This document shows, one piece after another, positions 2,667 to 34,987 of a stretch of DNA of 36,342 nucleotides (positions are counted from its first letter, which is position 1; the number at the start of each line of letters is the position of its first letter). The DNA is from Flavobacterium sp. (GTDB lineage: Bacteria > Bacteroidota > Bacteroidia > Flavobacteriales > Flavobacteriaceae): assembly GCA_030145825.1 (NCBI GenBank), contig JAIXHM010000005.1:1-36342 (forward strand). The letters are read 5' to 3'. The translations under genes and the position numbers were made by a program. The notes beneath the pieces were generated by a model that worked only from the letters and a program-made list of their open reading frames with translations, was not told the DNA's origin and made no database searches.

Positions 2667-4226
2667 TTATTTAGCAATATTAACCGCTCTAGTTTCTCTA
2701 ATTACAGTAATTTTAACTTGACCCGGATAAGTCATTTCAGTTTGAATTTTGTGAGAGATTTCAAATGATAATGTAGAAGCCATTTCGTCTGAAACTTTTT
2801 CACTTTCTACAATAACACGTAATTCTCTACCTGCTTGAATTGCATAAGCATTTTTAACACCATTAAATCCGTAAGCAATATCTTCTAAGTCTTTTAACCT
2901 TTGAATATAAGAATCTAAAACTTGACGTCTTGCTCCTGGTCTTGCTCCCGAAATAGCATCACATACTTGTACTAAAGGCGAAATTAAATATTTCATTTCA
3001 ATTTCGTCGTGGTGCGCTCCAATTGCGTTACAAACCTCATCTTTTTCACCATATTTCTCAGCCCACTGCATACCTAAAATCGCGTGCGGCAATTCACTTT
3101 CTGTTTCTGGTACTTTTCCAATATCGTGTAATAAACCAGCACGTTTAGCTAACTTTACATTCAATCCTAACTCAGCAGCCATAATACCACATAAATTGGC
3201 AACTTCTCTCGAGTGTTGTAATAAGTTTTGTCCATAAGAAGAACGATACTTCATACGACCTACAATCTTAATTAATTCAGGGTGTAGACCATGAATACCT
3301 AAATCAATAACAGTACGTTTACCAACTTCAATAATTTCTTCTTCGATTTGTTTTTGAGTTTTAGCTACAACTTCTTCAATACGCGCTGGGTGAATACGAC
3401 CATCGGTAACTAATTTGTGTAATGCTAAACGAGCAATTTCTCTCCTTACTGGATCAAAACAAGATAAAATAATTGCTTCAGGTGTGTCGTCTACAATAAT
3501 TTCAACTCCAGTTGCTGCTTCTAAAGCACGAATATTACGTCCTTCACGACCAATGATTCTACCTTTAACATCATCCGACTCAATATTGAAAACAGAAACA
3601 CAATTTTCAACTGCTTCTTCTGTTCCTACACGTTGAATAGTATTGATGATAACTTTTTTAGCTTCTTGCTGAGCGGTCATTTTTGCTTCTTCCATTGCAT
3701 TCTGAATGAAAGACATTGCTGCCGTTTTAGCTTCTGCTTTTAAACTTTCAACCAATTGATTTTTAGCTTCTTCCGCAGACAATCCAGAAATTACTTCTAA
3801 CTGTTCTACTTGACTTCTGTGAAGCTTTTCAATTTCTTGTTGTTTTTTATCCAAAAACTCAATTCTCGTGTTGTAATCTGCTAATTTTTCTTCAAATTCA
3901 TCATTCAATTTCTTGTTTTTAGCCAGTTCACTCGACACTTGAGATTCTTTATCTCTAGTTCTCTTTTCTGCTTCCGCAATTTTCTTGTCTCTCGATAAAA
4001 TTACCTGCTCATGTTCAGCTTTTAATTCTAAAAACTTTTCTTTTGCTTGTAAAATTTTATCCTTTTTAATTGATTCAGCTTCAGTTTTAGCATCTTTCAA
4101 AATTGAAGCTGCTTCCTTTTTTGCATTTTTAATAAGATTTGAAACATTGCTTTTCTCTAAAAATTTAGCAATTCCAAACCCTAAAGCAATTCCCAAAACA
4201 ATTCCTATAATCGTTATAAAATCCAT
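2667..4226 (-). CDS. rny: Ribonuclease Y
   Basis: N-terminal TM, coiled coil, KH domain '[34 protein letters not shown]', HD domain '[10 protein letters not shown]'. Confidence 0.97.
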
Positions 4227-4247
4227 AGTTTTAAAAAATATTTATAT

Positions 4248-4404
4248 AAAAAAAGCCTACATTAGGTGTTTGTATAAACTCGTAAAGACAAGTTTTGAGC
4301 TAGCTCGTTTTTCATGTTTCCCACTTAAGGGCTTACAATAGTACGAAGATTCGCTCATTTTAATTTGTTAGTGTTGAGTTTATCAAATATATGCTAATGT
4401 AGGC
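4248..4404 (-). ncRNA. 6S-like RNA candidate (ssrS / 6S-Flavo-like) with terminal stem and T run
   Basis: Located between zapA and rny. Perfect 11 bp closing stem (4255-4265 with 4394-4404), second 8 bp stem (4274-4281 with 4376-4383), inner TGAGC/GCTCA pairing, large central bubble. On the minus strand the closing stem is followed by TTTTTTT (4254-4248). Confidence 0.7.
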
Positions 4405-4434
4405 AGTATCTTTATCTTATTTGTAAGAACGTAT

Positions 4435-4728
4435 CTATCTTGAGAGTAACTCACTCAATTTCAAATCCAAGCTTTGCAAGCGCTTTAACGCATTTTGCTG
4501 TTCTTCTGAAGCATCTAACTTCTTTTGCTCGGTTTGCGCTGCAAATTGTAACGCACACATAGCTAGAACATCTTGCTTATCTCTAACTGCATAGCTTTGT
4601 TCAAATTGTTTTATCATCGCATCTATCTTTTTTGAAGCAGTTCGTAACGCTTCTTCTTGTGTATCTTCAATTGTTAATGGATATACACGATCGGCTATAG
4701 ATATTTTGATATTTAATTTTTCACTCAT
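4435..4728 (-). CDS. zapA: Cell division protein ZapA
   Basis: MSEKLNIKISIADRVYPLTIEDTQEEALRTASKKIDAMIKQFEQSYAVRDKQDVLAMCALQFA, ZapA family. Confidence 0.9.
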   Translation of the reverse strand: MSEKLNIKISIADRVYPLTIEDTQEEALRTASKKIDAMIKQFEQSYAVRDKQDVLAMCALQFAAQTEQKKLDASEEQQNALKRLQSLDLKLSELLSR

Positions 4729-4734
4729 GACTTC

Positions 4735-5025
4735 CTAATCAGAAAGTTGTGCTATGCAATGATCGATTTCACGAATTAATGAATTTATTTTGAGCTTCGT
4801 TTCTCGTTTATTTTCGTCACTGCCTAACAATGAATTTACCATTTTCAATTTATCAATTTGCTCATTTAAAACCGTTATTTGAGCTGATTTGATGTCATTA
4901 TCTTTCTTAACTTGTTCTAATAATTCATTGATTTCAATATTTTTCTTCTCTAATTGAACCAATTTCTGATTCAATTTAAAGAACTTAACTTCAAGAGCAT
5001 CAATAAGTTTGGACAAATCGTTCAT
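4735..5025 (-). CDS. Small coiled-coil protein (ZapB-like), cotranscribed with zapA
   Basis: 96 aa, almost entirely heptad-like, immediately upstream of zapA with a 6 nt gap. Confidence 0.65.
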   Translation of the reverse strand: MNDLSKLIDALEVKFFKLNQKLVQLEKKNIEINELLEQVKKDNDIKSAQITVLNEQIDKLKMVNSLLGSDENKRETKLKINSLIREIDHCIAQLSD

Positions 5026-5225
5026 TAATGGAAAAAATCATTTTCACTACATACAAAATTAAGATTACATTTTAACAATCACAATTTTTTTTGTTTTTTT
5101 TTATACTATTTTTCAACTTTTTTACAATAAACTGAGTTTTAGAATGTTGTAACTATATTAAAAAAATATTTTTTCAAATTATAAGTTTTACTATTTTAGC
5201 TGTAACACAAAACATATACAAGCCA

Positions 5226-6914
5226 ATGAAAAAATTTTTCGCCCTATTATTTTTATCTTCAATTGGATTTTCTCAAAACGATTATCCTAAAGAATTCATT
5301 TCTCCTTTAAATATTCCATTAGATGTTTCAGGTTCATTTGGAGAATTAAGAAGCAATCACTTTCATTCTGGTTTAGATTTAAAAACACAAAAAAAAGAAG
5401 GACTTGAAGTTTTTGCAGTTGCAGACGGATATGTTTCGAGAATTAAAATTTCTTCTTTTGGTTACGGGAAAGCGATTTATATTACACATCCTAATGGCTA
5501 CACTACAGTTTATGGACATTTACAAAAAGGAAATGGTTTAATTGAAGATTATATTAAAAAGAAACAATACGAAAAGAAATCTTTTGAAATAGAGCTCTTC
5601 CCTACTCCATCTGAATTACCAGTAAAACAAGGCGATGTTATTGCTTTAAGCGGGAATTCTGGAGGAAGTGGTGGACCGCATTTACATTTTGAGTTTAGAG
5701 AAACAAAATCGGAAAAAATTGTAAATCCATTACAATTTGGCTACAATAAACTTGCGGTTGACAATCATAATCCAGAATTGTATGGCATTATGGCTTTCCC
5801 AATAGATAGCACCATTGTAAACAAATCGCAATTACCTATTCCCATTTCATTTTCTAAACAAGCTGATGGCACTTACAAAGCTTCAAAAGTAATTGCAAAT
5901 GGCAAAGTTGGTTTTGCTATAAATGCCAATGATAAATGTACCAATCCTTACAATAAAAACGGACTTTATAAAGTAAATGCTTATTTAAATGGAGTACTCT
6001 ATTTCCAATATGAATTTGATAAATTCGCTTTTGACGAATCGCGCTATGTTAATAATTTCATAGATTATTTTACTTACAAATCTAAAGGGCAACGTTTTCA
6101 AAAGCTATTTTTTGAAACAAGTTATCCACTTTCTGTAATAAAAAACAATAAAAACAACGGAATAATTAATACACAACCAAAAGCAAGTTATACGTTAAGA
6201 GTAGAAATGTTCGATTTTCAAGGACACCAAGTAAATATTTTAATTCCAATTGAATATGGAACTTCAGAAGTTGCCATAAAAAAAGAAGTCAATACTTCAC
6301 CCTATTTTTTAAAATCTAAAATTGAGAATAATTATTCTAAAGAAAATATATCGGTTTTTATTCCAGAAAATACTTTCTACGATGATTTTAGATTAAATTT
6401 TGATGTAAAAGACAATGTTTTGTATTTGCATAATGATAAAGTTCCTGCTCATAAAAATTTTACGATTACTTACAGTAATGTTGAAGGCTTAAGTGAAGAA
6501 CAATTAAAGAAGACTTTCATAGCATCTGTTGATGGTGTAAAATTAGATTATAACAAAACAACAAGAAAGGGAAATTCACTTTCAGCAAGAGTAAGAGAAC
6601 TTGGAGTTTTTAAATTAGCACAAGACACCATTGCGCCACGAATTTATAATGTAAACTTTGTGGAAGGCAAAAATTTAATAAAACAAAATACAATTAGCGT
6701 TTCCATATCAGATAACATGTCGGGAATTGATACCTATAATGCTTATTTGAATGGCGAATGGATATTGATGGAATACGATTATAAAACCAATAAATTAGTA
6801 CATCAATTAGCTGATGGTAAATACAAAGAAGGAAGAAATTATTTTAAAATAATTGTAACTGATGATTTACAAAATTCAACTACCTTTGAATCCTATTTTT
6901 TTATGAATCCTTAA
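5226..6914 (+). CDS. M23 family metallopeptidase (secreted)
   Basis: Signal peptide; 'SGSFGELRSNHFHSGLDLKT...YGKAIYITHPNGYTTVYGHL...GNSGGSGGPHLHFEF', the M23/LytM motifs HxxxD and HLHFE. Confidence 0.93.
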   Translation: MKKFFALLFLSSIGFSQNDYPKEFISPLNIPLDVSGSFGELRSNHFHSGLDLKTQKKEGLEVFAVADGYVSRIKISSFGYGKAIYITHPNGYTTVYGHLQKGNGLIEDYIKKKQYEKKSFEIELFPTPSELPVKQGDVIALSGNSGGSGGPHLHFEFRETKSEKIVNPLQFGYNKLAVDNHNPELYGIMAFPIDSTIVNKSQLPIPISFSKQADGTYKASKVIANGKVGFAINANDKCTNPYNKNGLYKVNAYLNGVLYFQYEFDKFAFDESRYVNNFIDYFTYKSKGQRFQKLFFETSYPLSVIKNNKNNGIINTQPKASYTLRVEMFDFQGHQVNILIPIEYGTSEVAIKKEVNTSPYFLKSKIENNYSKENISVFIPENTFYDDFRLNFDVKDNVLYLHNDKVPAHKNFTITYSNVEGLSEEQLKKTFIASVDGVKLDYNKTTRKGNSLSARVRELGVFKLAQDTIAPRIYNVNFVEGKNLIKQNTISVSISDNMSGIDTYNAYLNGEWILMEYDYKTNKLVHQLADGKYKEGRNYFKIIVTDDLQNSTTFESYFFMNP

Positions 6915-11249: not shown

Positions 11250-11313
11250 CTCGACTCCGCTCGACCTGACAATTTTGTTAATTCCACTGTCACTTCGAGC
11301 GGAGTCGAGAAGT
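11250..11313. repeat. Divergent pair of B-type palindromic elements forming a 15 bp perfect inverted repeat
   Basis: ctcgactccgctcga (11250-11264) with tcgagcggagtcgag (11295-11309). The right copy TGTCACTTCGAGCGGAGTCGAGAAGT (11288-11313) is identical over 26 nt to one in prmC. Confidence 0.8.
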
Positions 11314-16936: not shown

Positions 16937-16970
16937 ATGTGCCAAAGTTGTTAAAAGTAAAAGGTGAGGT

Positions 16971-17060
16971 ATAGCCGTGATGGAAACGGTATCTTATTTT
17001 TTGTTGTACTTCGACAGGCTCAGTATGACAAAAAATAAATAAAGTGGACAGCACGATAAC
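16971..17060 (+). repeat. Structured element A, copy 1, with a B-type element in its apical loop
   Basis: TAGCCGTGATGGAAACGGTATCTTATTTTTTGT[tgtacttcgacaggctcagtatg]ACAAAAAATAAATAAAGTGGACAGCACGATA. Pairs with copy 2 at 34871-34956. Confidence 0.7.
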
Positions 17061-17158
17061 TGGTGATTTGAAATCTTGTAGTGTGCTTCATATTTCTAGT
17101 AATTTTTTAGAAAAACTTTGTAACTTAGCGACACTTAAATTTATTGACTTCAAAAATC

Positions 17159-33976: not shown

Positions 33977-34987
33977 CTAAAAGTAGACAAAGTGCCCTTT
34001 AACTCCGTTAAAATCACCTATTTGAAGTGTTGGCGCAGGAACTTTTATGGTATTAAATGCAGAAAAAATAGTCTTTAAAAAATGAGATTTTGTTTCAATT
34101 TTCGTCAAATCTACATCGAGAGAAAGATAAAATTCTCTTTTTGGAGATTGAGAAATTCCATTTTCAAAAGCTTCAGAATTTGAGCCATAAATCATTCCTT
34201 TTCCTCCATATCCTAATGCAAGATTTAACCATTTTGGTAAAACTTTTGAATGCGTGAAAGAATATAAATTAAAAGAAAGCCAATAAGTTTGTCCGTTATA
34301 ATCTTTTAAAAGCTGCTCATTAAAAGAACTTCCTAGAGTTTCTGGTCTATTTTGAGCGAAATGAGTTTGGTGGAAAGAAAATTTTGGTGTTATTCTTTGT
34401 TCGTGCCAAAGTAATTCTTGCCCAACGTAAAGTCCAGTTCCTGAAGCATTCGCTAACATATCGCCCCAAGAAAAACCCCATTCTTGAGAATAACCATCGA
34501 AAATTTCTACTACTGTTAAAAATCCGAAGCCAACTGTAGCACCATATACTAGTTGCTCTTTTTTGGTAGCACCACTCCAAGCTAATAAATCGGCACCAAT
34601 TTTACCTACATGGTAAGTAGAATAAAAATGCCCTACTTTATCTAGTTGTAACCATTGATTATTATCATTAATCGTATGAAAATTTGATTTTGGATAATCT
34701 TTATACCATAATTGGTTCAATCCTATTAAAGCTCCTCCTAGAGTAACACCTTCTGTAATGAGAACGGTTTTTTTTCTAGTAAGATTTAAAGTATCTGAAG
34801 GTTTAAAAAAGTTATCAAAACTTGATTGTCCGAAACTTAAAAAGCTGACAAATAAAAAAAACGACAACACCGTAACCCTGATGGAAGTGATATCCTTTTT
34901 TGTTCTCGAATTTTCTTGAAGTGACAAAAAAGATTTAACGAACAGCAGGAAAATAGACAACTGAAATAACGTTTCGTTTCGTTTCAA
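33977..34987 (-). CDS. DUF2279 domain-containing (YfiM-like) protein; start codon uncertain (TTG 34987 or GTG 34870)
   Basis: 'VYGATVGFGFLTVVEIFDGYSQEWGFSWGDMLANASGTGLYVGQELLW' is the DUF2279 core. No ATG upstream of the signal peptide VLSFFLFVSFLSFGQ. Confidence 0.85.
   Translation of the reverse strand: MKRNETLFQLSIFLLFVKSFLSLQENSRTKKDITSIRVTVLSFFLFVSFLSFGQSSFDNFFKPSDTLNLTRKKTVLITEGVTLGGALIGLNQLWYKDYPKSNFHTINDNNQWLQLDKVGHFYSTYHVGKIGADLLAWSGATKKEQLVYGATVGFGFLTVVEIFDGYSQEWGFSWGDMLANASGTGLYVGQELLWHEQRITPKFSFHQTHFAQNRPETLGSSFNEQLLKDYNGQTYWLSFNLYSFTHSKVLPKWLNLALGYGGKGMIYGSNSEAFENGISQSPKREFYLSLDVDLTKIETKSHFLKTIFSAFNTIKVPAPTLQIGDFNGVKGHFVYF
34871..34956 (+). repeat. Structured element A, copy 2, with a degenerate B-type element in the loop
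   Basis: CGTAACCCTGATGGAAGTGATATCCTTTTTTGT[tctcgaattttcttgaagtg]ACAAAAAAGATTTAACGAACAGCAGGAAAATAG. Confidence 0.7.

Follow-up and report, generated by a model that had tools for sequence, protein, structure and literature searches.

The two look-alike repeats in the window, by which we mean the whole 36,342-nt stretch of the Flavobacterium sp. contig analysed here, are copies of the Flavo-1 RNA (Rfam RF01705), a class described by Weinberg et al. in 2010 (PMC2864571). The reading that we favour, and consider probable, is that Flavo-1 is a dispersed intergenic element of which one defined strand folds into a hairpin, that the base of this hairpin is recognised by a putative protein and that its tip is replaceable, the B element in the tip being a later insert.

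When the whole window was scanned against Rfam with cmscan, exactly two matches were obtained and both were Flavo-1, above the gathering cut-off of 42 bits: copy 1 (16969..17062, + strand, 56.0 bits, E 1e-9) and copy 2 (34870..34956, + strand, 64.3 bits, E 5e-12). The first-pass annotation had noticed two similar copies at these places and had suggested Flavo-1 tentatively; the copies are indeed there, and the Rfam scan it had called for confirms the name. Copy 1 has the terminator of rpmE2 (L31) on one side and the promoter region of a glmU-like sugar nucleotidyltransferase gene on the other, its apparent position being upstream of this promoter. Copy 2 is located between yceG/mltG and a DUF2279 gene, both on the − strand. 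Flavo-1 copies start with TAGCCC and finish with AGCTCC or AGCTTC. There is no U run after the hairpin, as an intrinsic terminator would have, and the conserved 3′ end is GGAAAWAGCTCC. The minimum-free-energy RNA folds of the + strand gave the family structure for both copies (z −2.96 for copy 1 and −2.13 for copy 2), and the − strand folds were weaker (z −2.13 and −0.44, respectively).

The same annotation had proposed that the outer helix covaries, with CGTG/CACG in copy 1 and CCTG/CAGG in copy 2. This is correct, and it extends far beyond the window. In 28 trimmed copies from the window's genome, 99.4% of the paired cells were standard pairs and nine pairs were changed on both sides. A model built from these 28 copies was used to collect 100 copies, in which 98.5% of the paired cells were standard and double-sided changes occurred at 15 of the 17 pairs. 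The covariation score of the 100 copies was 0.545, compared with 0.161 ± 0.009 after shuffling and 0.03–0.13 with the helices slid; since the alignment was fitted to the search model the score is biased towards that model, but the slide controls came nowhere near 0.545. The conserved structure of RF01705 is thus backed by covariation both across the 100 copies and among orthologues of one site. Four pairs inside the apparent internal loop were supported as well (13-59, 14-58, 18-54, and 19-53 in the numbering of the 28-copy alignment); they are new here and had escaped the first-pass annotation. Of the 100 copies, 74 folded more stably as RNA on the + strand, and G-U pairs outnumbered A-C mismatches by 22 to 8 (binomial p 0.016, kinship ignored). 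Folding the copies as DNA gave no clear preference between RNA and DNA.

The window's genome (2.83 Mb) contained 28 Flavo-1 matches, 23 of them above the cut-off. Matches were found in 34 of 36 other Flavobacterium genomes, ranging from 1 to at least 65, and in three other genera of the order; two of the 36 had none, and none of the 14 control genomes had any. Flavo-1 is therefore limited to Bacteroidetes in the genomes searched. Several members of the genus carry no copy or a single one, so the element is dispensable. None of the 28 copies in the window's genome is contained in a predicted gene or ORF, and their gaps fall between co-directional, divergent, and convergent genes as the background does. 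Between co-directional genes, six copies were sense and ten antisense, and neither a common gene theme nor a sense bias was found among the neighbours of the copies in this genome. With gap classes at background, this argues against one uniform cis-regulatory role. Likewise, a transcriptome of Flavobacterium psychrophilum placed some Flavo-1 matches in sense, some in antisense, and some beyond any transcript (PMC9723704).

Many sites are shared between species. Apart from pgm and the glmU neighbours, the genes at these sites were named from their translations and not by family search. In the pgm leader, Flavo-1 was present in 24 of 63 species, always sense, and in about half of the cases its 3′ end was 14–19 nt before the start codon; presence and absence required 11 changes on the gene tree, compared with 19.6 when labels were shuffled. 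The rpmH-carB gap was occupied in 11 of the 37 loci, and each of these copies was antisense to carB. The truA/ABC transporter site was occupied in 14 of the 19 relatives read and the site upstream of a phosphoesterase gene in 17 of 19, and a copy at serC-serA was common to two species. The TAG opening Flavo-1 at the truA site appears to double as the truA stop codon (L041, about 1577-1582, and orthologues L193-L202). Orthologues of copy 2 occur in genomes G012 and G023 at the same place and in the same orientation, with a short tip.

The basal pairs of these orthologues change in step. At the phosphoesterase site, pair 10-62 is U-A, C-G, or A-U, pair 14-58 is A-U or U-A, and pair 18-54 is G-C or A-U; between copy 2 and its G012 orthologue, pair 14-58 changes from G-C to U-A and pair 18-54 from G-C to A-U. 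The tips are swapped wholesale: at the phosphoesterase site their sequences are wholly different between species, and all of them are still hairpins. Both the stepwise change of basal pairs with exchange of tips and the retention of Flavo-1 in fixed orientation at the pgm, carB, truA, phosphoesterase, and copy 2 sites are new here. The copy 2 site is empty in at least nine other relatives, where the gap is 72–81 nt. The DUF2279 gene of the window lacks an ATG close to its signal peptide (34866-34987). Where the site is empty, relatives seem to have a TTG start codon immediately behind the mltG stop, and copy 2 occupies this place.

A constrained base, a free tip, and a defined strand, without a matching constraint on gene context, lead us to favour protein recognition of the basal fold. 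The recognised part would be the CCYG/CRGG helix followed by a U-A and an R-Y pair and then by GY/RC pairs between conserved purines. We infer a protein that might bind this base; at transcribed sites RNA would be its most likely target, with single-stranded DNA as a possible one, and any effect on nearby genes would be an extension of the same reasoning. For the tip, any hairpin would suffice, and it may therefore be exchanged between orthologues and take up small palindromes such as B in this genome; many of the sites would have been retained vertically. The apparent position of copy 1 upstream of the glmU promoter, the mixed placement relative to transcripts in PMC9723704, and the dispensability of the element count against this explanation, and gene conversion between copies could mimic the constraint.

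The main rival, which we hold to be distinctly less probable, is that Flavo-1 is a purely selfish REP- or MITE-like repeat mobilised by a transposase acting in trans, so that the structure is a recognition hairpin from which the host gains nothing. The element is multi-copy, intergenic, and indifferent to strand, and its number varies from 0 to at least 65 within one genus. Among 80 named loci around the glmU-like gene searched with the own-copy model, Flavo-1 was absent from the rpmE2-glmU gap in those named relatives in which it was read, with one weak partial call (L188), and the empty copy 2 sites can be read in the same way. Moreover, two inverted Flavo-1 copies in the window's genome enclose a RAYT-like gene of 183 aa (L071, G000:C7:5000-16000, 4038-6666). 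However, this gene has a flanking repeat of its own, the palindrome CCTGCAAGGTTTTTAAAACCTTGTAGG right beside it, which is a likelier RAYT partner than Flavo-1. By Rfam, Flavo-1 was present in only 4 of 14 RAYT loci over the roughly 9 kb examined, and not as direct flanks; scanning with our own model, weak matches included, gave 12 of 40. Three genomes (G004, G029, and G030) with 64–65 Flavo-1 copies among the matches listed lack any Y1 transposase. No plasmid or phage copies were found (none in two collections; one contig of a virus collection), no convincing autonomous element was found between Flavo-1 halves, and the copies at common sites are kept with compensatory changes. REP elements associated with RAYT transposases (PMC2817692, PMC3116915, PMC3733652) resemble Flavo-1 in being short, intergenic, multi-copy, and hairpin-forming, but Flavo-1 has no unpaired GTAG or CGTC head and no linked RAYT gene that its copies regularly flank, and its sites are conserved across species. 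Mobilisation by RAYT is thus disfavoured by the few RAYT loci near Flavo-1, the RAYT's own repeat, and the mismatch in copy number. As for an autonomous parent with Flavo-1 ends, the candidates were two far pairs (L068 and L131), and the former was set aside as a truncated copy: in L068 (1233-1914), within a duplicated region, a Flavo-1 5′ arm is cut short in its tip, and an IS200-like transposase gene lies about 130 bp away.

A role for Flavo-1 as a cis-acting 5′ leader RNA controlling the downstream gene is unlikely. In many species it is sense and about 9–20 nt before the start codon at the pgm, truA/ABC, and phosphoesterase sites, which would fit such a role, as would the better RNA folding of the + strand. 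Yet at carB every species has it in antisense, as do many sites of the window's genome, it is divergent or untranscribed elsewhere (PMC9723704), and no gene function is common to the sites.

The B element is a separate, later insert and not part of Flavo-1. In copy 1 it is clear (17006..17030, + strand, TTCGACAGGCTCAGTATGACA), a TGTC-tagged, REP-like sequence identified by pattern match with context; in copy 2 it has decayed (34901..34924, + strand, TTCTCGAATTTTCTTGAAGTGACA) and matched the B pattern only at four mismatches. The first-pass annotation had seen B in both apical loops in the same orientation; this stands for copy 1 and, in decayed form, for copy 2, and the shared orientation is a coincidence because B occurs in the Flavo-1 loops of this genome in both orientations (four forward and two reverse at three or fewer mismatches). 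The nesting itself is real. B was present in 6 of the 28 copies at three or fewer mismatches, whereas the local density predicts 0.21 (Poisson about 1e-7); the range was 6–11 of 28 compared with 0.2–0.7 expected, the background density being taken from genome pattern counts and fetched loci. Loops do not always hold B, which was mostly missing from those of other species. The suggestion that Flavo-1 and B form one composite unit spreading together, which the enrichment in loops might seem to favour, is very improbable, since B occurs in both orientations, most of its about 53 occurrences in the genome are outside Flavo-1, and orthologues with and without B differ in the loop (at the carB site, L133 has it and L144, L152, L123, and L157 do not; the copy 2 orthologues in G012 and G023 lack it). 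By eye, a TGTC head and then a short hairpin can be made out in about 25 B copies, which look like the TGTC/CGTC-tagged REPs (PMC3733652), for which Bacteroidetes are listed among the hosts; the stem and loop were likewise compared by eye only. Two inverted B elements 16 bp apart are found in the window at 11250-11309, an arrangement often seen in REP pairs.

Besides the tip, which B enters, two other recurrent entry points were found in Flavo-1: after GAT in either arm (element C) and between GGA and AATAGC (element D). C is a roughly 50-nt imperfect hairpin, TACTTCAC...AGGAGTTCAGTGAA. All ten distinct C copies lie between Flavo-1 arm sequences, interrupting either the 3′ arm or, after GAT, the 5′ arm, and C would thus live solely within Flavo-1; these few copies come from a local BLAST search, supplemented by an exact-pattern search of 40 genomes. 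D interrupts several Flavo-1 copies at GGA|AATAGC; it is mostly found elsewhere, including eight times in one genome without Flavo-1, and is therefore independent. Tentatively, Flavo-1 may serve as a host for smaller elements entering at three fixed points, with C confined to it. Mobile elements that insert into palindromic repeats have a precedent in REPs targeted by insertion sequences (PMC1525189), which likewise take other elements at defined places; in Flavo-1, in contrast, the inserts are tiny palindromic repeats. As the nested inserts show, bacterial genomes can stack small palindromes at positions that recur, and such layers can mislead covariance models and readings of composite elements.

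Our copies agree with Flavo-1 as described (PMC2864571) in sequence, structure, host range, intergenic and strand-indifferent placement, and unassigned function. The internal-loop pairs, the long, short, and inserted forms, the orthologous retention, and the tip turnover go beyond that description. No function is given in the literature, and a functional clue has been absent since 2010; the pgm, phosphoesterase, and copy 2 loci are now concrete places for testing one. At these sites orthologues keep the base by compensatory change and swap tips, some of them just before a start codon, which suggests which part is recognised. Regarding the forms, several long copies (L140 5508-5652, L131 6952-7096, L074, L096, and L153) have a common conserved tip, GAGCGACCGRAGGAAGCTC, which is seemingly not described by the 76-position Rfam model. 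In a short form from two lineages (L028-L031, and L121 17908-17961), AAGCTACCNNGTAGC replaces the long stem.
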